DNA from: Morinoia aosen
Lineage: Eukaryota > Arthropoda > Malacostraca > Amphipoda > Talitridae
Direction: 5' to 3'
Length of the DNA stretch: 64,000 nucleotides
Assembly: GCA_030386875.1 (NCBI GenBank)
Contig: CM059575.1
Coordinates: 19,926,293-19,990,292 of the forward strand
Both the position numbers and the translations under genes were made by a program. Positions 16,172 to 64,000 of the stretch are shown one piece after another. The notes beneath the pieces are model-generated. The model was given only the letters and a program-made list of their open reading frames with translations. It made no database searches and was not told where the DNA came from. Within the stretch, counting starts at the first letter, position 1. Each line of letters begins with the position of its first letter.

Positions 16172-16529
16172 CCCCCTCAGGGGGATGCAACTTTTGTTTC
16201 TGTGGGAATTATGACTCCCATTGGGAAAATGCGTGAGGGCCCAAGCTGAGAGTCAGGGAAGCCTTCTTTTTGTTGAAATGAAATGTTTTTGTTCTGTTAA
16301 GAACCATGTTTTTCGGTTCACTGCTGTCTTGTTTTTTCAGCATCTATTACTTCCTTCTTCAACTTTTATCTTGTTTCATTAACTTCCTTCTCAACTTACT
16401 GTTTCTAGCCTCATCTGCATAGATTCCGCGTTCCCTTATCTCCATACTAAATGGTACCTTCCTCCTTACTCTCTTCGGAACGCTTGTTTTAAGCGGTTAG
16501 GGAAGCTTAAACTAACATCTAATCTAATC
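16172..16529 (+). mobile_element. S1 SINE-like retroposon, full length
   Basis: Begins CCCCCTCAGGGGGATGCAAC and ends with the family tail CTAACATCTAATCTAATC. Short subfamily (lacks the 24-base central insert). The first hairpin is damaged here. No clear target duplication. Confidence 0.85.
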
Positions 16530-16716
16530 AAGTTGTAATATAACCACATCACAAGTGTTCCCAAGATAAGAAGAGAGGTACCCTTTAGTAAAAAATTCTG
16601 GATCGAGGAAGCTATGCTCAATGTGTGTCCCCACACCTTGTGCTTTGAAACAAGCAAAACTGAAAGCAGTTGATAAGACACGGCAATATTTGAAAAAATA
16701 AAATTATAGGTTAACA

Positions 16717-16813
16717 ACTGTCCTATTTTTCAGCACTTGTTACTTTCTTCTTCAACATAAATTTCCTGTCTAGCTTACCTTTTCTCTGCGCAGGAGATCT
16801 AGCGTGGGAACGC
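16717..16813 (+). mobile_element. S1 retroposon, internal fragment
   Basis: Matches only the middle of S1 (CTGTCCTATTTTTCAGCACT through the CTGCGCAGG insert). Both ends are missing. Belongs to the long subfamily. Confidence 0.7.
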
Positions 16814-17042
16814 TCGTTTAGAATAATTTATGGAAAGATTTACGTAGCCTGTACAAAATCGTTCCTTACTCTGCTCCACCCTCTTTATATCGAAATAAAA
16901 AAAATTGTTGAGAGGGCTTAAGTGGTGAGATTTTGCTCTTATGGCGTTTAATGAGAGGTACTCATAAATTTCGTATATTATTCTGGTGTTTTTCGAGTAA
17001 CGGTATAAATATTCTAATACCAACTTCTACTGGAGGTAACAA

Positions 17043-17115
17043 GCCTTCATAGCTCAGGGGTTAGAGCGCTGGTCTAGTAAACCAGAGGCCGGGAGTTCGA
17101 TTCTCCCTGAAGGCA
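17043..17115 (+). tRNA. tRNA-Thr (AGT)
   Basis: A 73-nt cloverleaf. The acceptor GCCTTCA pairs with TGAAGGC, with discriminator A. The D arm is GCTC/GAGC. The anticodon stem CTGGT/ACCAG encloses loop CTAGTAA, giving anticodon AGT. The T arm is GGGAG-TTCGATT-CTCCC. It has no intron. A TTTTT run near 17143 could end Pol III transcription. It is identical to the copies at 29334-29406 and 58595-58667, and the A34 would be edited to inosine as in other eukaryotic Thr tRNAs. Confidence 0.97.
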
Positions 17116-17781
17116 GCGATCGATGTGAGTGTACCCACTCAGCTTTTTATGATTGTGTGACGTCCGCTTTTTTCCGCCATAGGTTTAAACCTCGAATGAC
17201 ATCGAGGTGTGAAAGGCGAGGTGGTGATAATGCCACTGTCTAAGGGAATCCATCTCTCTACTGGAATGTCTCTTCCAGCAGCGTGGAACATTCTTTCAGG
17301 TGCAACCCTCCACCTTGCGCAAGTGGCTGTGACGGGACAAGTTGAAGCGCAGTGTAAATCTATCTATATACCTAATGCAGGTCCTGGGCTAAAGTTTTCG
17401 TCCGCTGAATTCATGCGTTATTAAAGTATTATATCATTAGAGATTAGCATCATCATTCCTCATGTTACTAGTATGAAGGTTATAGCTGTTATATCAACAA
17501 CGTAGTTGTGTTTGAAATCATTCTAACATTTCATTCGTTTGGATTTTGGTTTCTTCGTTTGTATAGTTCTAGTCGCTCCCAAACTTATAGTCCAGCCCCT
17601 TGCGTTGTGTCATTTACTGCATTTTGGCTTCGTTTCGAACCTTGCTGTGAAGTACCAGCGGCCAGTGATGCCAGCGCTGAGCCACGGAGGTTGAATGGGA
17701 GGTGCAACCTCCTTGCGCTGAGCAGACGTTGCTGTAGCGTCCGGATGCTGCGACGCGCAGCTGGCTGGGTTCACGAATTTG
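17116..17781. other. No gene supported
   Basis: Mixed composition, with a GC-richer part at about 17640-17770 just left of the 38-bp array. ORFs here (71 and 93 codons) show no domain. Confidence 0.5.
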
Positions 17782-18235
17782 TTTGTTAGTGTTGAACCTT
17801 CATATCTGGTTCACATCTGTTTGTTAGTGTTGAACCTTAAATATCTGGTTCACATCTGTTTGTTAGTGTTGAACCTTCATATCTGGTTCACATCTGTTTG
17901 TTAGTGTTGAACCTTCATATCTGGTTCACATCTGTTTGTTAGCGTTGAACATTCATATCTGGTTCACATCAGTTTGTTAGTGTTGAACCTTCGTATCTGG
18001 TTCACATCTGTTTGTTAGTGTTGAACCTTCATATCTGGTTCACATCTGTTTGTTAGTGTTGAACCTTCATATCTGGTTCACATCAGTTTGTTAGTGTTGA
18101 ACCTTCAGATCTGGTTCATATCTGTTTGTTAGCGTTGAACGATCATATATGGGTCACATTTTTTTTATTGTTGAACCATCATGTTTACATCGCTTTGTTA
18201 GTGCTCACCACTGGTCCACATCTCTTTGCTAGATT
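17782..18235 (+). repeat. Minisatellite, 38-bp unit
   Basis: About 11-12 units containing TTTGTTAGTGTTGAACC and ATATCTGGTTCACATCTG. The spacing from 17782 to 17820 gives 38 bp. Units decay toward the right edge (18140-18235). Confidence 0.95.
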
Positions 18236-18555
18236 GTCTGCCAAAATTTTCCAACTAGGCATTTTTTGAACAAATTAAGCATAAAGTGCTTGGCAGTGGT
18301 CGGTTTTATCCTCGCATTTATTTAAAAAAAGTCAAAACTTGAGAAGTTTGGTCATAAAAATGGCGATATGGCGACTCGGTTTCGGACGATGATGCCCTGA
18401 CCCAGACCAATAGCTCAGTGTACGCCAACAATCTACTATGTCTAACTCGTCATGTGAAATTCAATGGGGGATTTCTGCTTAAAGTCCCCTTAGGAACACC
18501 ATTCAACTCCATTCCCATTGAACGGCCCTGAGGTGGTCAGGGCCTCAGGCCGTGA
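18236..18555. other. No gene supported
   Basis: Unique-looking sequence between the 38-bp array and an S1 copy. Confidence 0.5.
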
Positions 18556-18915
18556 CCCCTCAGGGGGATACAACTATTGTATCTATTGGAATTAGCGATC
18601 CCAGGGGGACAATGTTTGAGGGCCCGAGTTGAGAGGTAAGCCTGCTGCTTAGGTAAGTTTTTGTTGAAATAAAATATTTTTGTTATGATAAGGACCATTT
18701 TTTCGGTTCACTGCTGTCCTGTTTTTCAGCACCTACTACTTTCTTCTCAGACTTTGATCTTGTTTTATGAACTACTTTCTCAACTTGCTGTTTCTATGCC
18801 CTTTCTGCATAGATCCGCGTTCCCTTAACTCCATACTAAATGGTGACTTCCTCCTTTCTCTCTTTGGATCGCCTGTGCGAGAGGTTTAAACTAACTAATA
18901 ACCTAATCTAATCTA
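18556..18915 (+). mobile_element. S1 retroposon, full length
   Basis: Starts CCCCTCAGGGGGATACAACT with an intact first hairpin (GATACAACTATTGTATC) and ends TAACCTAATCTAATCT. Short subfamily. Confidence 0.9.
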
Positions 18916-18982
18916 TGTGCTTAAAGTTCGAGTTTTTCCACTTGTTCTCGTTTACTTCGCGTTGTATCTGTGGGTTTTTTTT

Positions 18983-19783
18983 CCCTCGGAGTGATTGAAC
19001 TATTATCTCTGTGGGAATTAGCGTTCCTAGGGAGAAGATGTGATGTCCCGAATAAGAGGATAGGAAGCTTTCTTTTTGTTGAAATAGAAACGCATTTTAT
19101 TTTGTTTTCTTTTCGGTTTTCCAACTTTTTCGATTCACTGCTCTCGTTCTTTTAAAACACTTGTTAGTTTCTTCTTCAACACGTTAAGTGCATTTGCGCA
19201 GTTACGGTCCGATTGGTTAGGCTGGAATTATCAATTGAAAAACAGTATTCACGGCTTGATAACATTGTATTCTTGCTAAGAAGCGCGAAGAATATAATTG
19301 CTTGGTAATATTTTAACATATTAACAATGTATTGGGACGAATGTGTACCACAAGGTAATTTGCTCTGTCACGTACCGGTATAAATGAGACGTATTTTGTC
19401 TGCATCGCGACCTTTTCGAAAAATTAACGTTATCATGCGAATTAAAATGTTGCATTGCAATTATATTTTTCGTATTTCTTAAAAAATATAGAAAAGTATT
19501 TGAGCAGTAAAGTCAATTTCTCAAGTCTGCTACTTACATCCAAACCACAGGAACCAAAACAACAGCAAAAACGTCAACGTGTTGACTTGTAAGCCATAAT
19601 CTAATTTAAATAAAGCTAGTGCAATAATTAAAATACAATTCGTCGATACTGGTACATAAATTAGCAATTTGCTTAGAGGTACACAGTATGTACCAACACA
19701 GTAAACATGTTAACTTCAATATGTTTGATAAACGTCTTTCTCCACTTGCTGTTTGTATGCGCAGGTGGTCTGGTGAGGGAACG
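18983..19783 (+). mobile_element. S1 retroposon split by an insertion
   Basis: The 5' part is at 18983-19184 (to CTTCTTCAAC) and the middle resumes at about 19719-19783 (TTTCTCCACTTGCTG, GCGCAGGTGGTC). Between them lies about 530 bp that includes an M2 element. The 3' part is lost where the next S1 copy begins at 19784. Long subfamily. Confidence 0.7.
19185..19718 (+). mobile_element. M2-containing insertion
   Basis: Interrupts an S1 copy. 19330-19590 matches M2 copy 1 (ATGTGTACCACAAGGTAATT, ACCGGTATAAAT, GAGCAGTAAAGTC, CTGCTACTTACATCC) and ends GTCAACGTGTTGA. The outer ends (CACGTTAAGTG on the left; complement CATGTTTACTG on the right, next to TTAA) match 8 of 11 and could be the terminal repeats of a larger TTAA element. 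Confidence 0.5.
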
Positions 19784-20483
19784 CCCCCTCAGGGGGATAC
19801 AACTATTGTATCTATGGGAATTAGCGCTCCCAGGGGGAGTATGTGAGGGCCCGAGCTAAAGGTTAGGTATGCTTTCTTTTTGTTAAAATAACACGCTCCC
19901 AGGGGAACCATGTGAGGGCCCGAGCTAAAGGTTAGGTAGGCTTCCTTTTTGTTGTAAGTAAATAGGTTTTTGTTTTGTTACGGATCTTTTTTTTTCGGTT
20001 CACTGCTGTCCTGTTTTTCAGCACCTACTACTTTTTTCTTCAACTTTTTTCTTGTTTCATGAACTTCTTTCCTAGCTTACTGTTTCTGTGCACCTTGTGC
20101 ATAGATTCCACGTTCCCTCAACTCCATACTAAATGGTGCCTTCCTTTTTCCTCTCTTGGAACATCTTTGTCGTGGTTAAGGGAGGCTAAAACTTTCTTAT
20201 ATAATAATAATAATAATGTTAAAATAACTTAGGTTTTTGTTTTGCTACGTACCAACTTTTTTCGGTTTACTGCTGTCCTGTTTTTTCAGCACCTACTACT
20301 TTCTTCTGCAAATTTGAACATGTTTCATGAACTTCTCTCTCATCTTACTGTTTCTATGCCCTTTCTGAATAGATTCCGCGTTTCCTCAAATCCATACTAA
20401 ATGGTGCCTTCTTCCTCCCTCACTTTGGATTGCCTTTGTTGCGGATAGGGAGGCTTTAACTAACTAAGAATCTAATCTAATCT
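19784..20483 (+). mobile_element. S1 retroposon interrupted by a nested S1
   Basis: The outer copy runs 19784-19892 and resumes at 20229-20483, ending TCTAATCTAATCT. A second S1 is inserted at its TGTTAAAATAAC sequence, which is duplicated at 19881-19892 and 20217-20228. Confidence 0.9.
19893..20216 (+). mobile_element. Nested S1 retroposon, 5'-truncated, (TAA)n tail
   Basis: Starts inside the family consensus at ACGCTCCCAGGGG and ends with a run of ATA/TAA repeats. A perfect 12-bp duplication flanks it. The A+T-only tail is shared with the copy at 23568 and marks a young subfamily. Confidence 0.92.
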
Positions 20484-20622
20484 GTGAGGGAACGTACTTT
20501 GTGTATAGATTCCCGGTTTCCTTTAACTCTATACCAAATGGTGCCTCCCTTGTTTCTCTTTTTGGAACGTTTTGTGGTTATGGAGGTTCTTCAAACTAAC
20601 TTATATTGAATCTAATCTCCGG
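20484..20622 (+). mobile_element. S1 retroposon, 3' fragment
   Basis: Starts within the central insert (GTGAGGGAACGTACTTTGTG) and ends ATTGAATCTAATCT. Abuts the preceding copy. Long subfamily. Confidence 0.75.
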
Positions 20623-20827
20623 GGTGTTCTTCAGTAAGTTGACACTTGGTTATCTCTGGCAGATGTGCAGGGATTCACAAGTAACATATTCAGTAAAAAA
20701 GGAAGCGGATTGTATGCTTCAAGGAGTTAGCGCTCCTCAATACCGCCCCATGTTGTCACACGATATTCAAACAGTTTTCTAGCTCTCAACAATGTTTAAA
20801 ATTACCAGGCCAAGTCTCTTGTTTCCA

Positions 20828-21184
20828 CCCCTCAGGGGGATACAATTATTGTATCTATGGGAACTAGCGCTCCCAGGGGGACAATGTGAGGGCCTGAGCT
20901 GAGAGTTAGGTAGGCCTTCTTTTTGTTGAAATAAAATGTTTTTGTTATGTTAAGGACCACCTTTTTTCGGTTCACTGCTGTCCTGTTTTTCAGCACCTAC
21001 TACTGTCTTCTTCAACTTTGGTCTTGTTTCATAATCTTCTTTCACAACTAACTGTTTCTATGCCTTTCTGCGTAGATTCCGCGTTTCCTTAACTCCATAC
21101 TAAATGGTGCCTTCCTCCTTCCTCTCTTTGGATCGCAATTGTTGCTAGGTAGGGAGGCTAAAACTAACGACTAAACTAATCTAA
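20828..21184 (+). mobile_element. S1 retroposon, full length, with duplication
   Basis: TCTCTTGTTTCCA at 20815-20827 and TCTCTTTTTTCCA at 21185-21197 match 12 of 13. The first hairpin reads GATACAATTATTGTATC and is intact. Short subfamily. Confidence 0.9.
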
Positions 21185-21393
21185 TCTCTTTTTTCCATCT
21201 TCGGGATCAGTATTGCAGTACACAGGCGTTAGACTTCTTACTCTAGTGTCTTTGCTTCTGTTCTTCCCAATTTGCGTCGCGTCTCGTCGTGTCGAGAAGC
21301 CTAAATGGCATCGGTTTGGTTTCTGCTGAAAGGAGAGGAGATGAAACCATTTGACTGTTGGCTATTGATCTTCATCTTCGAGTTCCACTGCAT

Positions 21394-23367: not shown

Positions 23368-23911
23368 TGAACACGTTTCCTAAGAAGGGGCCCACCGGTG
23401 GTCATCGGGTTTTTCAAAAGGCTGCTGACCGACCTGCAGTCATGATATTAACTCGGCTTTTATAAATACTCAATGAAAGCTAAATGAAAGAACGATCCAG
23501 TTGATGTTTTCTATTATCAAAATTGCTGACTACAATTCAATTGAATAATGAACTTCAGGTCAACTCACCCCTCAGGGGGATACAACTATTGTATCTATGG
23601 GAATTGGCGCTCCCAGGAGGACTATGTGAGGGCCTGAGCTAAAGGTTAGGGAGGCTTCCTTTTTGTTTTAATAAAATAGATTTTTGTTTTGTTACGGACT
23701 ATCTTTTTTCGGTTCACTGCTGTCCTGTTTTTCAGCACCTACTACTTTCTTCTTCAACTTTTTTCTTGTTTCATGAACTTCTTTCCTAGCTTACTGTTTC
23801 TGTGCACCTCGTGCATAGATTCCGCGTTCCCTCAACTCCATACTAAATGGTGCCTTCCTCTTTCCTCTCTTGGAACATCTTTGTCGTGGTTAAGGGAGGC
23901 TAAAACTTTCT

Positions 23912-23964
<53 letters not shown>

Positions 23965-23996
23965 TCAGGTCAACTCATCGCAGAAAATGTATTGAA
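23368..23996 (+). mobile_element. Family M1 element interrupted by an S1 copy
   Basis: M1 sequence runs 23368-23567 and finishes at 23978-23996 (CGCAGAAAATGTATTGAA). The S1 at 23568-23963 sits inside it, so M1 is the older insertion. Confidence 0.85.
23568..23963 (+). mobile_element. S1 retroposon, full length, long (TAA)n tail
   Basis: TTCAGGTCAACTCA at 23554-23567 is repeated exactly at 23964-23977. The element starts CCCCTCAGGGGGATACAACT and ends in about 13 ATA/TAA units. This is the clearest retroposition event in the window. Confidence 0.95.
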
Positions 23997-24242
23997 CCAA
24001 CGACTAGCTTTCTGTTATGAGATATCAATCGCGCTCCCGGCGAGATGGGCTTTTTTTGGAAGAGCGATCCCTCATATTTTTGGCAGCTTCGTAAGTTTTC
24101 AGGCGTGACTGAGCAGACGGTGCTCCTCTTAAGAGCATGAAGGCTTCACAGAAGGCATCTCTGGCTACTCGCCTCTGATACAGACTCAAAATTTATTGTG
24201 AATTCTGCTTTGGGAATGAACTAGTTCTTATCATTCCTACCA

Positions 24243-24595
24243 TCCCTCTTAGGGGAGGGAACAACGATTTATTTACGGAAATAAGCGCTTCCAGGGGTAA
24301 TATGTGAGGTCCAGAGCTACAGGTTAAGTAGGTATTCATTTTGTTGTAATTAGAGAAACGATTTTTCGTTTTGTTACGGACCATCTTTTTTCGGTTCACT
24401 GCTGTCTTGCTTCTCAGCTCTTACTACTTTCTTCTCCAAAGTTTTATTTTTCATGAACTTCTTTTTTAACTTACGGTTTTTATGAACCTTGTGTGTAGAA
24501 TCCGCGTTCCCTTAACTCCATACTAAGTGGTGCCTCCCTCTTTCTTCCGTTCGGAACGTCTTTGTTGCGGTTAGAGAGTTTTAAACTAACATCTG
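24243..24595 (+). mobile_element. S1 retroposon with duplication
   Basis: TCATTCCTACCA at 24231-24242 and TCATTCCCACCA at 24596-24607 match 11 of 12. The 5' hairpin has decayed (GAACAACGATTTATTTACGG). Short subfamily. Confidence 0.88.
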
Positions 24596-24607
24596 TCATT
24601 CCCACCA

Positions 24608-25833: not shown

Positions 25834-25847
25834 CTTTCTTGGTTCGT

Positions 25848-26130
25848 CTTCCCTCAGGGAGATACAGCTATTATATTTATGGGAATTAGCGCCACCAGGG
25901 GGAATATAAGTGAGGCTCTGAGCTAAAGGTTACGTTGGCCTTTTTTGAAATAGAACGAGTTTTTTATTTTTGTTACGGACCCTCTTTTTCAGTTCACTGC
26001 TGTCTTGTTTTTAAGAACCCACTACTATATTCTTAAACTTATTTCCTGTTTTATGAACTTCTTTCTCAACTTTCTGTTTCTATGTACCTAGTGCACAATC
26101 TGTGAGACTTAAACTAACATCTAATCTTAC
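25848..26130 (+). mobile_element. S1 retroposon with internal deletion
   Basis: CTTTCTTGGTTCGT at 25834-25847 is repeated exactly at 26131-26144. About 75 bases of the 3' part are missing between TGCACAATC and TGTGAGACTTAAAC. Confidence 0.92.
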
Positions 26131-26144
26131 CTTTCTTGGTTCGT

Positions 26145-27587: not shown

Positions 27588-27813
27588 TTAATGCGTAACT
27601 GCTGCGGGTTAGACTGAAGTTCAATATTCAACTCAAATTAGAGTTAATTTTAGAGATCAATTTTGAAAATAACGAACATTGAATAGGGTCGTTCCTCCAT
27701 TTAGTTTCCATGAAGTACGTATGAAAATTGAGTTTTTGACTGTTGGTCGGTCAGCAGCGTTATGAAAATCCCTTCAGTGACCACCGGTGGGTCATGTCGC
27801 AGTTAAAGTGTTA
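27588..27813 (-). mobile_element. Family M1 element
   Basis: Left TTAA at 27588. It carries AACTGAAGTTCAATATTCAA-like sequence (here GACTGAAG), the GACTGTTGGTCGGTCAGCAG block and GACCACCGGTGGGTC near the right end. Confidence 0.85.
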
Positions 27814-29333
27814 TGGTTTATATTCCTTTCAACCTATTAATCTGTCTAGTGTTAAGAGTTACTGTCCGACGAGGCTCTGGAGACCACTCTTGTATCACCA
27901 GAAGAGGCGGCCGCTCGTGCGTTATGACGGCGGTGATGCCACGATGGCCCTTTACGAAGGGCGTGCTGGCGTGAGGAGCGTGGGCTCTTCTCGGAAGAAT
28001 TGTCAGGGAGTCGTAAAGAAAGGACTAATTGTTACAAAAATGAAAACGTAATGGTATGCTACAGATTATGCAAACTTTAGATCCCTGGACAGCCGCGGTA
28101 CTACATGGGTAGAGGGCTTTGAGAAGTACGGACTTAACCGCTCAGTGAATGTCAATCATTCTTGATTTTGCAGCTGATGCTCGGCTGAAGAAGTAATGTT
28201 GTATTGTGAACTTCAGTATAAGATGATCCCGCGAGAGTAAGCCCTATTTTGTCATGACTAGAATACTGTAAAAATCAGTGGAAACAAACCAATATGCACC
28301 AAGAATCAACAGTGGAAAGAAAATTACACAGTGATGAGTTAGAATTTAATCACTTGATAAAATTGGTGATGATTGCGCGTATGAATTCATTCTTATCTGC
28401 TGTTAATCTGCTGTTAATTTGCTGTTAATTTGCCCATGCTGTTAATTTTGTTCCATCTTAAGTTTTTAAATTGTTTTACTGTATTTACTCTTCAATACGT
28501 CAGTGACTGCCATGTTTTTCTGCTATTTAGAGAGGTTTATTATTAACAGTAGGTTGACGCTTTAACTGGCCTTGAGACTGGGACTAATGTCGCATGCGAG
28601 AAATTTTCTCTCATTAATGAGCACTTTGGTGTCTATGCCTAGCATGGCGGTTGCGAAAAGATTATGTACGTTATGAAAAATTATTTCCGAGTGCTTAAGT
28701 GTTGTTTTATGTCTGGAGTTACTAATTAGAATTGGTTGCTGGAAATACAAGCGAAAAACATTAAAATGCGAAAATGATTTTAATTTCTGATTGTCAATGT
28801 TCGTTTATTTTAAATTCGCATGCATTGAGTGGATATCAAAGTAAAAGAGGCGATACACTAAAGAACTCTCTAATTCTTGCTGATGATTTTGTGGTAATTT
28901 ATGCTCTTCTACAAATATTCGTTTTGAAAATCACCGAAACACTAACCGCATCGTCCTATCTTGCTGGTCTGCGTACGGTGAAGTAAACTTTGGCACATTC
29001 CGTCAGAAACAATTCACTGCTGCTTTAAAGGTGCAGTGTTATGACAGCTGACTTTTCTTTCTTGTGTGAGTTAAGGACTTACTGATACAGATGTCCTACT
29101 CTCGAAAGCGCTGGCCATCACTGCTATTCCTAAACAAGTATTTGATCGCTTTGGTTAGTGTTGAGATTCTTTTGAAGACTTGGAGAGTGAAAGAGAAAGT
29201 TAACTGTTTTTATGCGATTATCATTACAGCGTTGAAAAAAAAAAATCGAGTCGTTTATTCGGTGGAATATCTAAGCTTCCGATAGTGCAGCTGATAATCA
29301 GAAAGAATTACAAAACGCAACGGTGCGCCACGC
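27814..29333. other. No gene supported
   Basis: A short tandem of CTGTTAATTTG-type units lies at 28396-28452. A 102-codon ORF (27743-28051) starts inside M1 and has no domain. Confidence 0.5.
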
Positions 29334-30920: not shown

Positions 30921-31290
30921 CCCTGCAGGGGAGTAAAGTTATTATACCTATGAGAATAAGTAGTCCCAGGGGGAATATCTGGGGTCCTGAGCTAAAAGTT
31001 AAGGATGCCTTCTTTTTGCTAAAATAGAATAGGTTTTTGTTTTTTACGGACAATTTTTTTATTCGCTGCTCTCATTTTATCAGCACTCACTATTTTATTC
31101 TTCAACTATTATTTTGTTTCCTGTTTCATAATCTTCTTTCTCAACTTTGTTTCTCTGCGCAGGGGACATTGTGTGGGAACAAACCATGCTTGCAGATTCT
31201 GCGGTACCCTAACTCCTTACTAAGTGGTGCCTTCATCCTTCCTCTCTTTGGAACGTCTTTGTAGCGGTTAGGGAGGATAAACTAATCTAT
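30921..31290 (+). mobile_element. S1 retroposon, long subfamily
   Basis: Starts CCCTGCAGGGGAG about 20 bases after the 33-bp array. It contains the central insert (GCGCAGGGGACATTGTGTGG) and ends GAGGATAAACTAATCTATTA-like sequence. No duplication seen. Confidence 0.83.
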
Positions 31291-32133: not shown

Positions 32134-32487
32134 TCTCCTTCAGGGAGAGACAGCTATTGCATATGTGAATTAGCTCTCTCAAGGGGAAAATGTGAGGTCC
32201 CGAGCTGAGAGTTAGGTAGGTTTTGTTGAAATAGAAAGTTTCTTATTTTGTTAAAGACAATCTTTGTTTTCGATTCTCTGCTGTCCAGTTATTCTGAACC
32301 TTTAACTTCAACTTTTATCTTGTTTCATATCCTTCCTTCTTTGGTTACTGTTTCTATGCGGGAGCCTACTTTGCCCATAGATTCTGCGTTCCTTTGATGT
32401 CATCCTAAATGGTGCTTTCATCCTTCCTCTCTTTGGAATGCCTTTGTTACGGTGAGAGAGGCTTGAACTAACATCTAGTCTAATCTG
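32134..32487 (+). mobile_element. S1 retroposon
   Basis: Starts CTCCTTCAGGGAGAGACAGC and ends CATCTAGTCTAATCT. It carries part of the central insert (GCGGGAGCCTACTTTGCCCA). The 5' hairpin is lost. Confidence 0.85.
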
Positions 32488-38375: not shown

Positions 38376-38737
38376 CTCTCTCGGGGGTGGTGCACAATTA
38401 TTGTATCTATGGGAATTAGCACACCCAGGAGGAATATGTGAGCTCTCGAAATAAAAGTGAGGTAGGTTTTCCTTTCGTTAAAATAACATATTTTTGGGTT
38501 TGATACGGATCTTTTTTTTTTCGATTCTCTGTTGTCCTGTGTTTCAGCTCTTATTAATTTCTTCTTCAACTTCTATCTTGTTTCATTAAGTTATTTCTCA
38601 ACTTACTGTTTCTATGTACCTTGTGCATAGATCCTGCGTTTCCTCTAGTTCACACTAAATGATCCCTTCTGCATTTCTCTCTTTGGGACGCTTATGTGGC
38701 GGTTAGGGCGGCTCAAAATAACATCTAATTCAATCTG
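38376..38737 (+). mobile_element. S1 retroposon, full length
   Basis: Starts CTCTCTCGGGGGTGG and retains CTATGTACCTTGTGCATAG in the middle. It ends ACATCTAATTCAATCT. Short subfamily. Confidence 0.87.
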
Positions 38738-40654: not shown

Positions 40655-40887
40655 CCAACACTTCGATGGCGACATGGGCCACCGGTGGTCAATGAGGGAG
40701 TTTTCATAATGCTGCTGACCGACCACGGATCACAAGCTCAATTTTCATAAATACTACTGTAAATCAAAACTAAATGAAGACACGATTCAGTAAATGTTTG
40801 CTATTTTCAACATTGCTTACCGTAATTCACTTTAAATTTGAGTTGAATATTAAACTTCAGTTTTACCAGCCGTAGTCAAAGTGCTAA
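40655..40887 (+). mobile_element. Family M1 element
   Basis: Contains GGGCCACCGGTGGTCAATGA, CATAATGCTGCTGACCGACC and the right end GTAGTCAAAGTGCTAA. TTAA sites are mutated. Confidence 0.85.
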
Positions 40888-41170: not shown

Positions 41171-41522
41171 CCCCTCAGGGGGGTACGAGTATCGTACTTG
41201 GGAGTTTGCGCTCTCAAAGGAAATGTACGAATGAAGGCCCCGAGGTGAGAGCTAGGTAGACTACTTTTTAAAAAAAATTAGGGGTTTTATTTTCTAGAAG
41301 ACCATCTTTTTTTCCTGTCCACTACTGTCCTTTTTCGGGATCCATTACTTTCATCTTCAACTTTATATCATGTTTCATAACCTTTTTTCTTCAGCTTTTT
41401 CTTAGCTTACTGTATAGATTCTGTGTTCTCTTAACTCCGTACTAAATGATGCTTTCATCCTTCCTCTCTTTGAACATATTTGTTATGGCAAGGGAATCTG
41501 AAGCTAACTTTTCATCTAATCG
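41171..41522 (+). mobile_element. S1 retroposon with a compensated hairpin
   Basis: Starts CCCCTCAGGGGGGTACGAGT. The first hairpin reads GGTACGAGTATCGTACT; compared with GATACAACTATTGTATC, two A-T pairs have become G-C pairs. Middle and 3' parts are diverged and partly deleted. Confidence 0.8.
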
Positions 41523-46009: not shown

Positions 46010-46126
46010 GCTAGTAATTGTGGTGCAGCTAGTCATTTTATCACCCCTGCTAGTAATTGTGGTGCAGCTAGTCATTCTATCACCCCTGCTAGTAATTGTG
46101 GTGCAGCTAGTCATTCTATCGCCCCC
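46010..46126 (+). repeat. 39-bp tandem triplication
   Basis: Units start at 46010, 46049 and 46088 with GCTAGTAATTGTGGTGCAGC followed by TAGTCATT and ATCACCCCT. The third runs directly into the S1 copy at 46122. Confidence 0.9.
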
Positions 46127-46413
46127 TCAGAGAGAAACAACTATTGTATCTATGGGGATTAGGACCTAGGAGGGGAAAATGTGAGGTCCCGAGCTGAGAG
46201 TTAGGAAAGCCTTTTTTTGTTGAAATGTTTTTTTGTTATGGTAAGGCACCTTGTTTTCACTACTGTTCTGTTTTTCAGCGCCTACTACTTTCTTCTTCAA
46301 CTTTAATCTTGTTTCATAAATTTATTTTTCAAATTAATGTTTCTATACATCTTGTGCATAGACTCCGCTTTCCCTCAAGTCCATATTAAATGGTGCCTTC
46401 CTCCATCCAGTTA
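46122..46413 (+). mobile_element. S1 retroposon, 3'-truncated
   Basis: Starts CCCCTCAGAGAGAAACAACT and stops matching after TGGTGCCTTCCTCCATCC. The family's last 60 bases are absent. Confidence 0.83.
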
Positions 46414-46888
46414 TTCTGTCGCTTTCCACAATTTTTTTTATAATTTTTGTACCATAATCAGGCCAAAGGCCAAAAATATATTTTTCCCCACGTATATACA
46501 AAATGCATACATTTTATGAACACAAAAAGGTTGCGGGGAACTTTTTATGCTGTTTAATGTAATGAAGTCACATGTAGTCCAAAATTGGGGTAGCGAAATA
46601 AGCAGAATCGTCACCCATTGAAAAGAATGAGTGCACAAGGACAAAAAGTTCTCGTACAAGCTGCTAACTAAAGATAATGAAGACTAAGTCCTAGACAACC
46701 GAATGTAAATTAGTTGTGTAGAAAAAAGTCAATTGGGTCAGCTCTGCCGACAACGAGCATCAAACCACTGTAGGTATTGATTCGAACTGAACGGGGAGTG
46801 AAAAGTTCTGATAAGCCTTATTGAGGATCTTACCAAATGCTTACTGGAATAGTCGTAAATGAAAAAGCTAATCGTTTTGGAAAAATTG
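46414..46888. other. No gene supported
   Basis: AT-rich. Holds no element that matches others in the window. Confidence 0.45.
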
Positions 46889-46905
46889 TGTAGTCAGATA
46901 AAATG

Positions 46906-46942
46906 TAGCGGTTGGGGAGGCTTAAACTAACCTACAATCTGA
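46906..46942 (+). mobile_element. Extremely 5'-truncated S1 insertion, 37 bp
   Basis: Only the last part of S1 (TAGCGGTTGGGGAGGCTTAA, then ACTAACCTACAATCT) is present. It is flanked by TGTAGTCAGATAAAATG (46889-46905) and TGTAGTCAGATATAATG (46943-46959), which match 16 of 17. This is how abortive target-primed reverse transcription would look. Confidence 0.85.
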
Positions 46943-46959
46943 TGTAGTCAGATATAATG

Positions 46960-47812: not shown

Positions 47813-48111
47813 ATGCTACTACCGTACCAGTTGCGTGGTCACCTGCTGCTGGCGCTGGCCGGTGCGCTGGTGGTGTGTCTGGCCGACGACAGCACCCAAG
47901 TGGCACACACCCCTGGAGACCGCCAGCCGCACGACGTGCCTTACCCGCGGCAGCGCAGCAACGGGCTGCGGGCCAACGCCGTGCGTGGCAACGCATCCCA
48001 TCTCGCCCGGCGCCGTGGCGGCGCAAACTCGCAGAACCTGAACCCGCATCTTGGACACCGGCGGCCTCGCAGGATGAGCACCAGGCATCTTCTCGCTTCC
48101 CACCGGTCTGG
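47813..48111 (+). CDS. First coding exon of a secreted protein, unrecognised
   Basis: ATG at 47813 (context GAAAACGATG) opens 99 codons. Residues 1-24 form a textbook signal peptide: a short polar start, a hydrophobic core (LLLALAGALVVCLA), then ADD as a likely cleavage site. The rest is Arg- and Asn-rich, has no cysteine, carries one N-glycosylation motif (NAS, 60-62), and has basic clusters RRR (66-68) and RRPRR (83-87) like prohormone processing sites. The exon is far more GC-rich than its surroundings. G|GTGAGT at 48112 is a consensus donor and leaves phase 2, with the next residue glycine. Later exons were not located. Could be a neuropeptide-like or cuticular secreted protein; I cannot name it. 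Confidence 0.5.
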
Positions 48112-48120
48112 GTGAGTACC
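48112..48120 (+). other. Splice donor of the secreted-protein exon
   Basis: GTGAGTACC directly follows CTGG. Reading through gives a stop within the next codon, which fits an intron start. Confidence 0.5.
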
Positions 48121-50948: not shown

Positions 50949-51041
50949 AGCTGATTGAGAACCATGCCTCATGATACTCCGACTAGCCCCCTCTGGGAGC
51001 ATAGGACAGGCAATAGGCTTAGGCTAGCTGCGTTTGTGCAT

Positions 51042-51380
51042 CATTAGGGTAGCCAGTACTCATAGGGTAGGTTTTTTTTCACAGAATTTTCTTGACGGGA
51101 CCCCCTAAAAAGGTGAGGTCGATAGAAAAAATGATACTGGTAAAGTTTCAGACCATTTGAACATCGCTAATTCGTGCCCCAACGGCCTCAAAGTTCTGAA
51201 AAATCGCGAAAAATGCCATTTTTCAGGACTTTGAGGCGGTTGGGGCACGGGTTAACGATGTTCAAATGGTCTGAAACTTTACCAGTATGATTTTTTCTAT
51301 CAACCTCACCTTTTTAGGGGGTCCCGTCAAGAAAATTCTGTGAAAAAAAATCAACCCTATTAGTACTGGCCACCCTAATG
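51042..51380. mobile_element. Near-perfect palindromic miniature element
   Basis: Arms of about 160 bp (51042-51203 and about 51219-51380) pair with few mismatches. Outer ends are CATTAGGGTAGCCAGTACT and the complement CATTAGGGTGGCCAGTACT. Inner tracts include TTCTTGACGGGACCCCCTAA and GTAAAGTTTCAGACCATTTG. The two arms are so similar that the insertion looks young or is kept alike by gene conversion. Confidence 0.9.
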
Positions 51381-51404
51381 TATCATATGCTGTTGGGACT
51401 GGCG

Positions 51405-51707
51405 CCCCTCAGGGGAGACACTGTTAGGGTACTTCAGTTGCAGGTAGGCCTCCGGGACTTCTGTCTTTCGTGCACACTTTTTTTCTTTCCGTTTTGGTGC
51501 CTTCTTCGTTATCGCTTCTTTTTCATTTCTTCCTCTCCTTTCTTAACTTGCTCTCTCTATGTGCAAGGTATCCTGTTTGAGGACACACCTTGTCCATAGA
51601 ATCCCCGGTCTCTACAGTTTATTCTAAATGGTCCATTTTCTTCATTCTCTCGAGATCCCCTTTTTTGTTGCTAGCGAGTCTTAAACTAACTAATGTAATA
51701 ATAATAC
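51405..51707 (+). mobile_element. S1 retroposon, divergent, long subfamily
   Basis: Starts CCCCTCAGGGGAGACACTGT, lacks much of the 5' third, and holds the central insert (GTGCAAGGTATCCTGTTTGA). It ends ACTAACTAATGTAATAATAA. Begins 24 bases after the palindromic element. Confidence 0.75.
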
Positions 51708-52027
51708 TTTGATTGGCTTATGAGAGGAGTCAATTCGGTTGAATAGCATTTTATCTTTTCGAAGCCTTGAACGAATTTAAAAAACTTGAAGTGTCAGAGT
51801 ATTAGTACGACTTTAAAATTTGTACATGGATGTGAGAGCTGTTGCAGCTGGCGTAGAGACGCGGGCCTGTTGCCTCCTCCATCTTTTCCTTCAAGTTTTG
51901 TTGGCTCTCTGCCCCTGAGGCGAGTGAAATTCTATGCGCGTGATATCATTTGGATCATTGCTGGGCCTAATTATCCAATTTTTACGTTTAACTCGTTCTT
52001 ACCATCGAAATATTATTTAGTATTTTC

Positions 52028-52388
52028 CCTCAAAGGGATACAACTATTGTATCTATGGGAATTAGCGCTCCCAGTGGGAAAATGTGAGGGCCTGAGCTCA
52101 GAGTTAAGTAGGCTTTCTTTTTGTTGAAATAAAAGTTTTTTTGCTATGTTACGGACCACCTATTTTCGGTTCACTACTGTCCTGTTTTTGAGAACCTCTG
52201 ACTTTCTTTTTCAACCTTCATCTTATTTTATGAACTTTTTTCTCAACTTACTGTTTCTATGCCCCTTCTGCATAGATCCCTCATTCTCTTATCTCCATAC
52301 TAAATGGTGCCTTCTTCCTTCCTCTTTTCGAGACACTCTATTTTTGTAGCGGTTAGGGAGGCTTAAACTAACTTATAATCTAATCTTG
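52028..52388 (+). mobile_element. S1 retroposon, full length, perfect duplication
   Basis: TTTAGTATTTTC occurs at 52016-52027 and again at 52389-52400. The hairpin GATACAACTATTGTATC is intact. Short subfamily. Confidence 0.93.
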
Positions 52389-52400
52389 TTTAGTATTTTC

Positions 52401-54424: not shown

Positions 54425-54779
54425 TCCCTTAAAGGGAATACAACCATTGTATCTATGAGAATTAACGCTCCTAGGGGGAAAATGTGAGGCTCCGAGCAGA
54501 GAGTTGGGTAGGCTTCTATTTTGTTTTGTTAAGGACTTATTTTTGGGTCATTGCTATTCTGTTTTTCAGCATCTCTGACTTTTTTATTCACCTTTTATCT
54601 TGTTTCCTAACCTTCCTTCTCAACTTGCTGTTTCTATGTGTACGGGATCTTGTGTGGGATCACATATTGTGCATAGATTCCGCGTTCCCTCTACTTCATG
54701 GTGAATGGTCCTTTCATCCTTCCTGCCTTTGAACATCTTTGCTATGGTAAGGGAGGCTAAAACTAACTTAAATTCAATC
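54425..54779 (+). mobile_element. S1 retroposon, long subfamily
   Basis: Starts TCCCTTAAAGGGAATACAAC and holds the central insert (GTACGGGATCTTGTGTGGGA). Ends ACTAACTTAAATTCAATC. The hairpin is nearly intact (ATACAACCATTGTAT). Confidence 0.87.
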
Positions 54780-55599: not shown

Positions 55600-56840
55600 C
55601 AGTATACGTTCGTTGACTTTTGGTCTCTAGAATACGTGTTCGTGGACTTGTTTATGTACTATATACGTCCGGGAATTTTCAGTGTAGAATATGTCTTTGT
55701 GGACTTTTGAACTGTTGAATTTACGTACGTGGACTTATGGTCTGTTGACACTGTTCAGGGATTTTGGTGTGTAGAATATATGTTCGTGGATTTTGGTCTG
55801 TAAAATATGTGTTCGTGGACTTTTGGTCTGTAGAATATGTCGTGGATTTTGGTCTGTAGAATATGTATTCGTGGACTTTTGGTCTGTAGAACATGTCGTG
55901 GATTTTGGTCTGTAGAATATGTATTCGTGGACTTTTGGTCTGTAGAATATGTGTTCGTGGACTTTTGGTCTGTAGAACATGTCATGGGTTTTGGTCTGTA
56001 GAATATGTATTCGTGGACTTTTGGTCTGTAGAATATGTGTTCGTGGACTTTTGGTCTGTAGAATATGTGTTCGTGGACTTTTGGTCTGTAGAATATGTGT
56101 TCGTGGACTTTTGGTCTGTAGAATGTGTGTTCGTGGACTTTTGGTCTGTAGAATATGTGTTCGTGGACTTTTGGTCTGTAGAATATGTATTCGTGGACTT
56201 TTGGTCTGTAGAATATGTGTTCGTGGACTTTTGGTCTGTAGAATATGTGTTCGTGGACTTTTGGTCTGTAGAATGTGTGTTCGTGGACTTTTGGTCTGTA
56301 GAATGTGTGTTCGTGGACTTTTGGTCTGTAGAATATGTCGTGGATTCTGGTCTGTAGAATATGTGTTCGTGGACTTTTGGTCTGTAGAATGTGTTCGTGG
56401 ACTTTTGGTCTGTAGAACATGTCATGGATTTTGGTCTGTAGAATATGTATTCGTGGACTTTTGGTCTGTAGAATATGTGTTCGTGGACTTTTGGTCTGTA
56501 GAATATGTGTTCGTGGACTTTTGGTCTGTAGAATATGTCGTGGATTTTGGTCTGTAGAATATGTGTTCGTGGACTTTTGGTCTGTAGAATATGTCGTGGA
56601 TTTTGGTCTGTAGAATATGTGTTCGTGGACTTTTGGTCTGTAGAATATGTCGTGGATTTTGGTCTGTAGAATATGTGTTCGTGGACTTTTGGTCTGTAGA
56701 ATGTGTTCGTGGTCTTTTAGTCTGTAGAATGTGTGCGTGGACTTTTGGTCTGTATAATATGTTTTGTGGACTCTTGGTCTGAATAATATGTGTTTGGGGA
56801 CTTTTGGTCTGTAGAATATGTGTTCGTGGACTTTTTCAAC
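55600..56840 (+). repeat. Minisatellite, 30-bp unit with 26-bp variants
   Basis: Roughly 37 units of GTAGAATATGTGTTCGTGG plus ACTTTTGGTCT. Shorter ones (GTAGAATATGTCGTGGATTT) are interspersed. Units before about 55790 and after 56690 are degenerate and the middle is homogeneous. Periodic ORFs appear on both strands, and the 26-bp units break their frame. Confidence 0.94.
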
Positions 56841-59744: not shown

Positions 59745-59818
59745 GCCTCCGTGGCGCAATTGGTTAGCGCGTTCGGCTGGTAACCGAAAGGTTGGTGGTT
59801 CGAGCCCACCCGGGGGCG
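59745..59818 (+). tRNA. tRNA with Asn body and GGT (Thr) anticodon
   Basis: Every base outside the anticodon matches the intact tRNA-Asn genes. The loop reads CTGGTAA instead of CTGTTAA, so the middle anticodon base (59780) is G. All stems pair. A GGT anticodon reads Thr codons ACC/ACT. Eukaryotes normally use AGT for these and lack tRNA-Thr(GGT). Its identity set (discriminator G, acceptor stem) remains Asn-like, so what it is charged with cannot be read from the sequence. The downstream run is only GAAATGTTTTC (TTTT at about 59822). Confidence 0.9.
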
Positions 59819-59864: not shown

Positions 59865-60216
59865 TCCTCAGGGAGTACTACCAATGTTTCTCTGGAATAT
59901 ATGGATCACAGGTGAAAATATGAGCTCCAGAGCTAAGTGTTAGGTTGGGTTTCCTTTTGCTTATACAAGATATGATTTTTGTTCCGTTATGTACCATTTT
60001 TTTCAGTTCACAGCTCTCCTCTTTTTCAGCAACTACTACTTTCTTCTTCAAATTTAATCTTTTCTCATAAACTTCCTTCTCAACTTACTGTTTAATGCAC
60101 TGTGTGCATAGATTCTGCGTTCCCTCAAGTCTGTAGTAAATGGAGCTTTCTTTCTTGCTCTCTTTGGAACGCCGATGTTGCGTTTAGGGAGGCTCAAGCT
60201 GACTTATCTAACCTAA
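59865..60216 (+). mobile_element. S1 retroposon, diverged 5' end
   Basis: Starts CTCCTCAGGGAGTACTACCA. The 5' hairpins are lost, but CAACTACTACTTTCTTCTTC and GTGTGCATAGATTCTGCG are kept. It ends TTATCTAACCTAACAAA. Confidence 0.83.
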
Positions 60217-60499
60217 CAAACCCACTCTTTTATTAATAGTTACTATACTTTACAGTGGGGGACTTGAGTGTCAAAATAACCAATGATGGTGACAAGATCA
60301 TTTAAGGGCTTTTATTTCTATTTGAATAATTTTAGTAGCTCTACAAAAATGATTGATTCCGCAGTTACACCTAATTGATTTTATCACCTTATATGAGCAC
60401 TATAGCTGTTGTCACGCACCGCTAGCTGCGTTATGAAGTAATTCCTGGCTAATATCGTTTCGTGAATGGAGAAGTGAAGACTTTCAATTTATATTTGAG
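60217..60499. other. No gene supported
   Basis: Short AT-rich spacer. Confidence 0.5.
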
Positions 60500-60899
60500 T
60501 AGCGAGCTTTCGGACATGCTTTAAACTCAAGTGTCGACCGTAGGATTGAGATCCAACGAATAGGGAGGCAGTATTTTTTTTGACCCAATTCGTGGTACGA
60601 GTATATTGTTTGTGCACTTGACTTGGGTGATTTTCGTGTGTTGAGCAGATGTTACTGTAGGTCCACAGTGTACCTCTAGCATATTGAATGCAGAATTGAA
60701 CATTGGCAAATTAATTTCTAAGAAAATCATCATGAAAGGACTAAGGACTGGTGTAGCGGTAAAATAGCCACCCAAACCATAGCAGAAGCTGCATAGAAGT
60801 GATGAAGTTTTTTTCATGTAGAGCAGAAATTTTCTTGGAAAGTTGCATTTGCTACGTCGGTTGTGATGCATTTGATCTGTGTATAATTCAGAAATTTCA
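60500..60899 (-). pseudogene. Tc1/mariner transposase remnant
   Basis: A minus-strand frame from 60919 to 60527 stays open by chance. It contains CYGLGGYFTATPVLSPFMMI-like sequence, then TSAQHTKITQVKCTNNILV, and ends ILPPYSLDLNPTVDT. The last part matches the SPDLNP segment that holds the third catalytic aspartate in Tc1-like transposases, and TSAQHTKIT fits the decayed NARPHTA segment. No terminal repeats found. Confidence 0.6.
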
Positions 60900-61245
60900 C
60901 TCCTTGGGGGAGCTAGCACTCCCTGGAGGTAAATGCGTGGTCCTGAAATGAGAGGTCAGCCATCTTTCTACTGATATTATATGTTTTTGCTTTTTTAAGG
61001 ACCGTCTTTTTTCGGTTCACTGCTGCCCAGTTTTGAAGCCTCTCTAACTTTTGTCTTTGACTTTTAACTTGTTTCCTTACCTTTCTTCTCAACTTACTGT
61101 TTCTATGCGCAGGGAATCCTGTGCAGAAACATACCTTGTGCATAGATTCTCCGTCCCCTTAACCCTATACTAATTGGTGCCTTCATCTTTCCTTTCCTGG
61201 AACATCTTTGTTGTGGTAATGGAGGCTAGAAACTAACTTAATTAA
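60900..61245 (+). mobile_element. S1 retroposon, 5' internal deletion, long subfamily
   Basis: Starts CTCCTTGGGGGAGCTAGCAC, so the first hairpin is absent. It contains the central insert (GCGCAGGGAATCCTGTGCAG) and ends ACTAACTTAATTAAC. Abuts the Tc1/mariner remnant. Confidence 0.85.
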
Positions 61246-62074: not shown

Positions 62075-62128
62075 TCTTTCATAATTGTAGTGTTCAAACT
62101 TGATATTTAATATACATAGAGAATTGGG

Positions 62129-62143
62129 TTGCGCCATGGAGGC
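62129..62143 (-). pseudogene. tRNA-Asn 5' fragment
   Basis: GGTTGCGCCATGGAGGC matches the first 17 or so bases of the neighbouring tRNA (complement GCCTCCATGGCGCAAC) with one change. Likely a local partial duplication. Confidence 0.5.
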
Positions 62144-62956
62144 GTTCATTTGTTGTCAATTTTTCCCCGGAAATTAACAAGGAAAAAAATACTATTTCAC
62201 GCATATGAGCATATATTAGGTATTGAGTTGATTCTCATTAAAGTATTGTGTGGGTTGCTCGTTGATCATACCGCCGAACAAGATTTGAGTATCTATCAAC
62301 CTACATTTGAAACATATTCAAGCGTTCACAAAACAAGACGATAATGAGCAGAATACTATAGTGGTGAACATCAGCAAGACAGAACCTTCGAAGTAGTTAA
62401 CGTGTGCATCAGATATTCGGGGAGTTGAATAATGTGTTTGTAAGTGGAAGTGTATGTTGTAAATTAAATATATAAAGCAAGAAACAAACTTTTCAATGCG
62501 CTTTTGTAAAGGCTATTCTTACCATTTCCAGTGAAAGAGATGCCGCTACAAAACTAGATTTTTTTGCCTGTGTGACTTAACTTGAGAGCGTCTAAAATCA
62601 GCATCTCGAGCTTGAACTCATCAGAAGCAAACCTGGAGGTAAAAGAATAGTATTTGAATCTCAGCACAACGCTGTAAGCTCCCGAGTGTTCAGAGACCAG
62701 AGTGCGGTAACAAGCGGCGTGTAGTGAGGTGTCCTGCAACGAATATTCTACCACGCGCTCAGGCAGGTAGCATGTGATGGTGAGCTGTTGCAGCTTATTT
62801 GCCTTGCGAGAGGTTGGTGGGGTGAGGGGGATGGTAGGCTGATCCATCCTCGTTGGTTGGGTGACCCTCCTTAATTACCCTTTCCTTAGTTACCTCTCCA
62901 AAAAAATAGGCTGCATTATATCGCTTTTGAATATGACGCACATAAAAAATATGGTG
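62144..62956. other. No gene supported
   Basis: A 97-codon minus ORF (62847-62554) shows no recognised domain. Nothing else seen. Confidence 0.5.
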
Positions 62957-63220
62957 CTCTCGTCACCGTGACCGAGTGGTAAGCGCGCGCCCTTCTCGGG
63001 AAGGTGTCGGTCGTTCGTATCCTGGCCGTGCCGTCCGGTGATTCTCCCCGTTGGGAAAAGAAAGAACTCGGCCACAATTCCCCACTCAAACCAGGTGATG
63101 GAAATGGGTACCGGCTTGACAGAGGGTAACCGACATTGCGTCCTGGTGTTGTGAAGTATTTGAAAAACCGATGTACAAGATATGTATCAGGCTTGATTGG
63201 AATAAAAAATCCTTTTCTTC
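62957..63220 (+). mobile_element. tRNA-derived SINE (S2)
   Basis: The head has TGACCGAGTGGT (62969-62980), fitting an A box, and GTTCGTATCC (63013-63022), fitting a B box. The spacing suits a Ser- or Leu-type tRNA. An unrelated body follows (CCGGTGATTCTCCCCGTTGG, AACCAGGTGATGGAAATGGG) and the 3' end is GGAATAAAAAATCC. Only one copy is in this window. Unrelated in sequence to S1. Confidence 0.7.
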
Positions 63221-63712
63221 CTTTTCTTACATTTAACTTTCATTAAATGCAAATCGTCCCTGGCCGCGAATCAACGCTGTTGTCATTACGGAAAACCATC
63301 ACTGATAAACTAGTGTCCTACGGACGTGGCGTGCGGTAAAGAGTCGAGACATAACTTCGTTGTTACTTTGCAGCATTTCCTGATGGTTTTCCCTATGGTT
63401 CACTAAATGCTCATTCATGATTAAGTTGCACACAAATCCAGTGCGCTCTAAGATGACGCCACTCGTTTCCAGAGAGATGTTATGGTTACCTGAGGTCACA
63501 CGGGTTCATTCCGTTGCTTTGTATTGACGCCAGTCCCTCGTGAACCAAAATGTGCAGCTAAGTATCACAATTTTGTATGTACCGTAGTTAATGTATGTAC
63601 CGTAGTTAATATGTGACTAATCCAACGCTACCGTAGATACGATTCTTTTTTTCATCAATTAATGCAATTTACAAACAGTGAATTCTAACGAAGATTTTTG
63701 GAATGATTATGA
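63221..63712. other. No gene supported
   Basis: ATGTATGTACCGTAGTTA is tandemly duplicated at about 63570-63610. Nothing else recognised. Confidence 0.5.
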
Positions 63713-63729
63713 GCCTCCGTGGCGCAATT

Positions 63730-63769
<40 letters not shown>

Positions 63770-63786
63770 GAGCCCACCCGGGGGCG
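63713..63786 (+). tRNA. tRNA-Asn (GTT)
   Basis: Identical to the copy at 57822-57895, on the other strand. All stems pair. A TTTT terminator follows at about 63792. Confidence 0.97.
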
Positions 63787-63846
63787 ATACTGTTTTGTAC
63801 ATATTCAACATTTTTTCTTATTTCGTTGGCTATAGCTCTCTCTCAA

Positions 63847-64000
63847 TCCCCTCAGGGCGATACAACTATCTCATCTATGGAAATTAGCACTCTCAGGGGG
63901 AAAACGTGTCAGAACCCGAGGTGAGAGTTAGGTATGCCTTATTTTTGTTGAAAGAAGTGTTCTTTTTTCGTTTCACTGCTGTGCTATTTTTCAGCACCGA
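63847..64000 (+). mobile_element. S1 retroposon, cut by window end
   Basis: Starts CCCCTCAGGGCGATACAACT and runs to the window edge inside TATTTTTCAGCACCGA. The hairpin's right arm is changed (CTCATC). Confidence 0.88.

Follow-up and report, generated by a model that had tools for sequence, protein, structure and literature searches.

A 64,000-nucleotide stretch of the genome of the talitrid amphipod Morinoia aosen (GenBank assembly GCA_030386875.1, contig CM059575.1; hereafter the window, C20:19926293-19990292) harbors many copies of a short repeat called S1. A preliminary description had counted 23 copies or fragments with a common start and tail, and this was confirmed by an nhmmer profile built from the window copies (cut-off, E<=0.1): 26 pieces were detected at 16173-63998, compared with 0 in the reversed (not complemented) window, and the first 16 kb of the window gave 0 pieces with this profile. 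When pieces split by later insertions are merged, the merging being our own, about 22 insertions are left, 21 of which lie on the plus strand (one-sided binomial, 5e-6); indeed, every clear copy is on the plus strand, and the sole minus-strand piece is a diverged one at 16541-16711. This coherence of orientation, absent from the preliminary description, is a more surprising feature than the family itself.

As a control in the same sequences, a family of miniature inverted-repeat transposable elements had 20 copies, 9 on the plus and 11 on the minus strand, and adjacent copies agreed in 6/14 cases. The members of this family (about 230 bp; window 14373-53311, e.g., 27596-27814 and 40656-40886) have ends like TTAACACTTTGACTGCG and occur in both orientations. 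We then counted the 20-mer at the start of S1 in the 1.99-Gb assembly of 29 contigs (C1 and C20 denote contigs, and L-numbers denote genome stretches), and 13,366 exact occurrences were found, 6,643 forward and 6,723 reverse, with 0 for the backward control. For C1, orientation statistics were taken from the first 100 places listed for this 20-mer, which span 0-14.6 Mb. Adjacent pairs less than 20 kb apart agreed in 26/26 cases, and the agreement was 14/19 at 20-50 kb, 17/22 at 50-100 kb, 12/18 at 100-300 kb, and 6/14 at 300 kb or more; the places formed 25 orientation runs against 50 expected, a number as low as which was seen in 0/20,000 shuffles. At least 30 consecutive minus sites are found at C1 13.04-14.58 Mb. 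Also, 11 of the 20 ten-kb stretches of C20 around the window hold S1, where adjacent matches agree in 23/25 cases and 6/8 stretches with at least two matches are unanimous; some adjacent matches are parts of one insertion, and these counts therefore overstate independence. On C20, the orientation is plus at 19.75-20.08 Mb and mainly minus at 20.45-20.80 Mb. S1 copies share a coherent orientation across tens to hundreds of kb, and this reverses from one region to the next.

Local hopping or tandem duplication of S1 was considered as a source of this coherence and rejected for the sampled copies, because their nearest relatives are not their neighbours; only 4/49 copies had the nearest relative within 60 kb (shuffled mean, 7.7), and different subfamilies landed in the same direction in one place. 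It is scarcely credible, furthermore, that the tracts go back to ancient duplication, segmental or tandem, of DNA containing S1. L007 and L008 (C1 1392650 and 1431889) are indeed mirror-image copies of one segment, and some close groups (e.g., C1 2.050-2.063 Mb) may have arisen likewise; nonetheless, such duplication is contradicted in the window, where individual S1 copies have unrelated flanks and differing target-site duplications (TSDs), and the finding that the closest kin of a copy is not its neighbour argues against it as well. L007 and L008, about 40 kb apart, reflect either inverted duplication of the segment or its duplication in the assembly.

The strand of S1 was compared with that of host genes by two routes. 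In the gene-first route, ion-channel exons and zinc-finger linkers led to 14 stretches of 5 kb; four of these (L030, L038, L040, and L043) hold S1, and 9 of their 10 matches are in the sense orientation. In the S1-first route, we searched the open reading frames (ORFs) of stretches that contain S1 against Pfam and PDB, which identified a host gene in five of the 18 stretches (L001-L007 and 11 on C20): namely, delta-class GST (L005; an exon indicative of an insect or another arthropod), a weak PAXBP1 (L018), CLC (L019), ABC (L025), and DUF3456 (L027). All of the S1 matches in these five stretches (14/14) are sense; in L027, for example, two exons of one minus-strand DUF3456 gene bracket two full-length S1 copies, both of which are also minus. 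Only transposon ORFs were recognised in L006, L007, L014, and L015, and the remaining S1-first stretches gave no usable match. L015, with mixed S1 orientation, was excluded from the ORF ranking, and its ORF at 6870-7826 has no Pfam match; a match to DUF4806 in L004 fell below threshold (E 0.034) and was not counted. Over both routes, 23/24 S1 matches in nine stretches are sense in this small sample of genes, and eight stretches are unanimously sense, one is split, and none is antisense (8/8 corresponds to about 0.004, one-sided). In the window itself, none of 39 ORFs matched Pfam over the curated cut-off, and a candidate exon at 47813-48112, for which neither Pfam nor PDB gave a match, is on the same strand as S1. 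Dense one-strand matches of the zinc-finger linker at C13:48993922-49037117 mark a large zinc-finger cluster.

The S1 pieces of the window are collected in Table 1. The consensus has 354 positions (models span 354-384, and the element is about 350-390 bp) and is T-rich, with 38.8% T and 20.8% A. An exact start, CCCCTCAGGGGGATACAACT, is found at 18556, 19785, and 23568, and one with a single mismatch at 63848; the tails are (TAATC)n or (TAA)n, and an older type carries about 24 extra bases ahead of CCTTGTGCATAG. The 5′ end is well defined, as 46/74 matches begin at model positions 1-8; this set comprises the window and 27 other genome stretches, from which L008 was excluded as the mirror of L007 (L008 was otherwise dropped as well and kept solely in the C1 line of the stretch-wise count of adjacent agreement). 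Two perfect hairpins are present at the 5′ end of the consensus, which begins CCCCTCAGGGGGATACAACTATTGTATC; covariation across copies was at or near controls with no clear excess, RNAalifold gave three weak pairs only, and a conserved 5′ RNA structure is hence not claimed. An exact 22-mer of S1, CTCCATACTAAATGGTGCCTTC, had 0 matches in the public collections viral_contigs and genome_contigs. Insertions also fell into one another: in a nest, all on the plus strand, an old S1 is split by an S1 at 19785-20483, which is itself split by an S1 at 19894-20216.

Table 1. Pieces of S1 and a candidate exon in the window (positions are those of the window)
Feature	Position	Strand	Basis
S1, near full length	16173..16531	+	nhmmer E 5.7e-99
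Diverged S1 fragment, sole minus-strand piece	16541..16711	-	nhmmer E 1.9e-14
Diverged S1 fragment adjoining the minus piece; may form one inverted insertion with 16541-16711	16709..16811	+	nhmmer E 1.2e-9
S1, full length, exact start 20-mer	18556..18910	+	nhmmer and start match
Old S1, 5′ part; probably same insertion as 19712-19783 and 20484-20610 (joining inferred)	18983..19180	+	nhmmer E 1.2e-25
Old S1 hosting the nest, middle part	19712..19783	+	nhmmer and TSD search
Second S1 of the nest, 5′ part; TSD GTGAGGGAACG 19773-19783 / 20484-20494	19785..19893	+	nhmmer and TSD search
Innermost S1 of the nest, 5′ truncated; TSD 19881-19892 / 20217-20228, 12/12	19894..20216	+	nhmmer and TSD search
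Second S1 of the nest, 3′ part	20217..20483	+	nhmmer and TSD search
Old S1 hosting the nest, 3′ part	20484..20610	+	nhmmer and TSD search
S1, full length; TSD 20815-20827 / 21185-21197, 12/13	20828..21183	+	nhmmer and TSD search
S1, full length, (TAA)n tail; TSD 23554-23567 / 23964-23977, 14/14	23568..23963	+	nhmmer and TSD search
S1; TSD 24231-24242 / 24596-24607, 11/12	24244..24595	+	nhmmer and TSD search
S1, internal deletion; TSD 25834-25847 / 26131-26144, 14/14	25850..26130	+	nhmmer and TSD search
S1, old type, extra 24 bp	30921..31290	+	nhmmer
S1, old type	32137..32487	+	nhmmer
S1	38386..38737	+	nhmmer
S1, diverged	41171..41522	+	nhmmer
S1 without 3′ end; duplication 46109-46122 / 46409-46422, 12/14	46123..46409	+	nhmmer and TSD search
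S1, tail only; TSD 46889-46905 / 46943-46959, 16/17	46906..46942	+	nhmmer and TSD search
Putative first coding exon with ATG and hydrophobic start; ends with donor-like GTGAGT	47813..48112	+	sequence alone
Diverged S1 branch, near full length	51405..51706	+	nhmmer
S1; TSD 52016-52027 / 52389-52400, 12/12	52028..52388	+	nhmmer; TSD by eye
S1, old type	54426..54779	+	nhmmer
S1	59866..60219	+	nhmmer
S1, old type, short 5′ end	60892..61243	+	nhmmer
S1, 5′ part, ends at window edge	63848..64000	+	nhmmer and start match

A diverged branch of S1 is represented at 51405-51706 of the window and also at L019:823-979, L022:3418-3567, and L026:7849-7998; its head and tail are seemingly common with S1, and the middle differs. 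A near-perfect foldback palindrome (51041-51395) lies just upstream of the branch member in the window. Other features of the window are long minisatellites at 10392-13766, 33959-35674, and 55604-56835 (units near 21-22, 49, and 30-56 bp) and eight tRNA genes at 17043-63786 (Thr AGT, Asn GTT, and Asn-like Thr GGT), and six more tRNA genes occur at 20.08 Mb (L022:62-2608). Two S1 copies begin about 50-60 bp downstream of the tRNA genes at 59745-59818 and 63713-63786. At the end of C20 (L041), a 30-bp repeat array contains TTAGG and is not a plain telomere repeat.

That S1 was inserted by the machinery of long interspersed nuclear elements (LINEs) had been proposed from seven TSDs, and all seven are present where they were reported (14/14, 14/14, 12/12, 12/12, 12/13, 11/12, and 16/17); the 12/12 pair 52016/52389 was read by eye, as the automated search gave a longer imperfect match around it. 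We found two additional duplications, 19773/20484 (11/11) and 46109/46409 (12/14), and 11/21 window copies tried, several of them with intact ends, had no duplication above chance. In the window and 27 stretches, a clear TSD (score>=9; median, 13 bp) accompanies 18/54 S1 copies with a 3′ end, one of the 18 falling in tail repeats, compared with 1.57% of mismatched flank pairs reaching that score. The clear cases vary from 9 to 17 bp and are mostly near 12-14 bp; the left copy usually directly precedes CCCCTC, and the right copy follows the tail. Such a layout is the footprint of target-primed reverse transcription. The consensus has no terminal inverted repeats, its start CCCCTCAGGGG not being complementary to its end TAATCTAATCT, and this, together with the variable TSDs and the simple-repeat tails, speaks against S1 as a deletion product of a DNA transposon. 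With its TSDs, tails, and defined 5′ end, S1 is a non-autonomous retroposon of the kind that LINE machinery makes.

S1 also does not look like the 3′ end of a longer LINE. No longer LINE-type copy extending upstream of S1 was seen among the 74 matches in 28 stretches, which are a tiny part of the genome, and tail-only pieces have no common non-S1 upstream sequence except for nested S1 copies and the diverged branch. Visual inspection of the DNA downstream of the reverse transcriptase (RT)-like ORFs in L006, L012, and L023 revealed no S1-like end. One candidate was met in L015: if a foldback insertion is disregarded, the reading frame of an RT ORF there extends unbroken into the 3′ sequence of S1 and ends at TAG. 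The DNA upstream has at least 40 genome copies at 98% identity or more over 450 bp (40 of 1,369 candidates were scored), and two copies of this RT element, L046 and L047, carry the reading frame onward and contain no S1 match. The L015 element was therefore rejected as the LINE partner or parent of S1, and L015 holds a later, 5′-truncated S1 insertion. The foldback element itself (L015:4865-6457), inside the high-copy RT element, is flanked by an 8-bp duplication, AAAAAGAG.

In terms of size, S1 resembles short interspersed nuclear elements (SINEs), being short (less than about 700 bp) and non-coding, and its variable-length TSDs and simple-repeat tail also fit that class. A SINE, nevertheless, is expected to have a head derived from an RNA polymerase III (Pol III) RNA with a Pol III promoter, and the earlier statement that S1 has no tRNA, 5S, or 7SL head holds: no Rfam family reached the gathering score, permissive scans of two copies gave nothing better than E 2.5, and the head has no A box. 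Rfam ribozymes gave no match either, and S1 thus differs from the R2 or L1Tc type with a hepatitis delta virus-like 5′ ribozyme. The word CGGTTCACTGC at +143 of the consensus, previously called only a weak B-box match, fits a looser consensus at 10/11 positions, and an A-box-like word (10/12, again by a loose consensus) lies at about +76, 67 bases upstream; these words are too far in to be suited to starting transcription at +1, and the earlier view that the head lacks tRNA-like A and B boxes stands. A reading of S1 as a tRNA-type SINE in which the promoter has moved inward would account for both words, and yet we find it highly doubtful, since no tRNA family of Rfam matches, the conserved 5′ end would be lost if Pol III started near +60, T-runs occur between and after the boxes, and the A word scores equally elsewhere (10/12 at 320). 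The T-runs in the consensus are six, of 5, 6, 4, 8, 5, and 4, and runs of four or more normally end Pol III transcripts. Without an Rfam head, with the box words too far in, and with these T-runs, S1 is more likely a product of RNA polymerase II (Pol II) than of Pol III; judging from the consensus, it is probably transcribed by Pol II, either from its own 5′ end or via read-through from the host gene. S1 is therefore SINE-like in size, tail, and TSDs but is not filed as a SINE, because it fails the test of the Pol III head.

The masked DNA around S1 is itself skewed: on the S1 sense strand, T exceeds A in 14/20 units and G exceeds C in 14/20 (0.009 and 0.019, respectively, against random flips). 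In S1, C exceeds G, and undetected S1 therefore does not explain the flanking excess of G. In ion-channel introns, T>A holds for the sense strand of the gene in 7/8 stretches, with C>G on average; zinc-finger stretches have T>A in 2/4, and all gene stretches measured have T>A in 9/12. The skew supports a directional process without deciding which one.

We consider that S1 is a LINE-copied non-autonomous retroposon with no known Pol III head, probably transcribed by Pol II, that inserts in the sense direction of genes, an explanation that could equally well prove right or wrong as a whole. LINE-type machinery would copy S1 by target-primed reverse transcription, and new copies would enter in the same sense as the host gene; the nick that comes first and primes cDNA synthesis would be placed on the strand that serves as template in transcribed genes. 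Insertion coupled to transcription appears to us the most likely cause of the sense rule, preferred over selection and replication direction. A stricter form, which we consider somewhat less likely than not, is that S1 is strand-locked: the machinery would read the direction of host transcription and nick the template strand only, and the thousands of copies would form a fossil record of the direction of germline transcription. The sense copy would in that case always be carried by the host transcript, so that S1 could do without a promoter. Several points weigh against coupling to transcription. Selection could have sorted most insertions, the data here being assembled sequence and not insertion events. 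The gene sample is small, and matches within a stretch are not independent, some being one insertion; 10/14 gene-first stretches have no S1, L040 is split, and the gene call in L018 is weak (E 0.0056), without which 21/22 matches in 7 stretches are counted. The gene-first strand is deduced from flanking exons of the same family, and zinc-finger arrays may hold several genes. Furthermore, S1 copies point both ways in L015 and L026 on C20, the skew on the S1 strand is only partly as expected (G>C around S1 against C>G in channel introns), and no LINE partner was found among the RT elements looked at in L006, L012, L023, and L015.

The main rival, somewhat unlikely in our judgment, is that S1 inserts both ways and that antisense copies in genes are removed for a harmful signal such as a cryptic splice donor. 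Indeed, the antisense consensus of S1 contains a perfect GTAAGT and the sense consensus has none, whereas AATAAA is present in the sense but not the antisense strand and should disfavour sense copies, so that the two words would pull selection in opposite ways. Orientation bias of transposable elements in genes by selection is well known, but the known biases are milder than that of S1. The bias of S1 is near complete, including the copies with the exact start 20-mer (26/26 pairs less than 20 kb apart among the C1 places listed), an exact 20-mer being no proof of a young copy. For comparison, human values for the strand bias of transposable elements in genes, with passages on human L1, are given in PMC10030826. 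Rather improbable, and third in our ranking, is a nick that prefers one template strand at replication forks, by which orientation would record fork direction as in Tn7 and IS200/IS605. The bacterial precedents are described in PMC5371812, where LINE-1 ORF2p is also reported to bind PCNA. Coherence over large tracts, including that at C1 13.04-14.58 Mb, would suit forks, and so would the S1-aligned skew of T>A with G>C, which is unlike that of channel introns; on the other hand, the gene strand predicts the S1 strand in 8/9 stretches, with one split, although co-orientation of genes and forks could also give that result.

For LINE-driven elements, the strand choice at insertion is thought to be near random, with mild later biases that are usually antisense in genes. 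Among known short elements, RIME of ingi and SIDER of trypanosomatids are Pol II derivatives of non-LTR elements with no Pol III head in hosts with one-way gene arrays. By these descriptions, S1 differs in sitting in intron-bearing animal genes. In the open-access literature searched, no paper on so strict an orientation rule for a SINE-like family was found. According to PMC8010984, the insect SINEs PxSE1-5 and HaSE3 are, like S1, short and non-coding with a simple-repeat tail, TSDs, and thousands of copies, and LINE-dependent mobility is assumed for them as for S1; their heads, however, are of tRNA or 5S type and carry Pol III boxes, whereas S1 lacks a recognisable head and contains T-runs internally. 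The word “orientation” is absent from the text of PMC8010984 examined. R2 SIDEs (PMC3414825) are also short non-autonomous non-LTR elements and depend on host transcription, but R2 inserts site-specifically into 28S genes and carries a ribozyme at its 5′ end, whereas S1 gave no match to an Rfam ribozyme. Tn7 (with TnsE) and IS200/IS605 resemble S1 in that the orientation of insertion follows a directional host process (PMC5371812); these are, nonetheless, bacterial DNA transposons following replication, while S1 is a retroposon that goes with genes in our sample.

Modest though the sample behind the sense rule is, a family so nearly confined to the sense direction would be a natural experiment on target-primed insertion meeting transcription. 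Were insertion the cause, S1 would mark the strands transcribed in the germline of a genome that lacks expression data; were it selection, that selection would be unusually strict. S1 would also illustrate how a short retroposon might propagate with no Pol III promoter.

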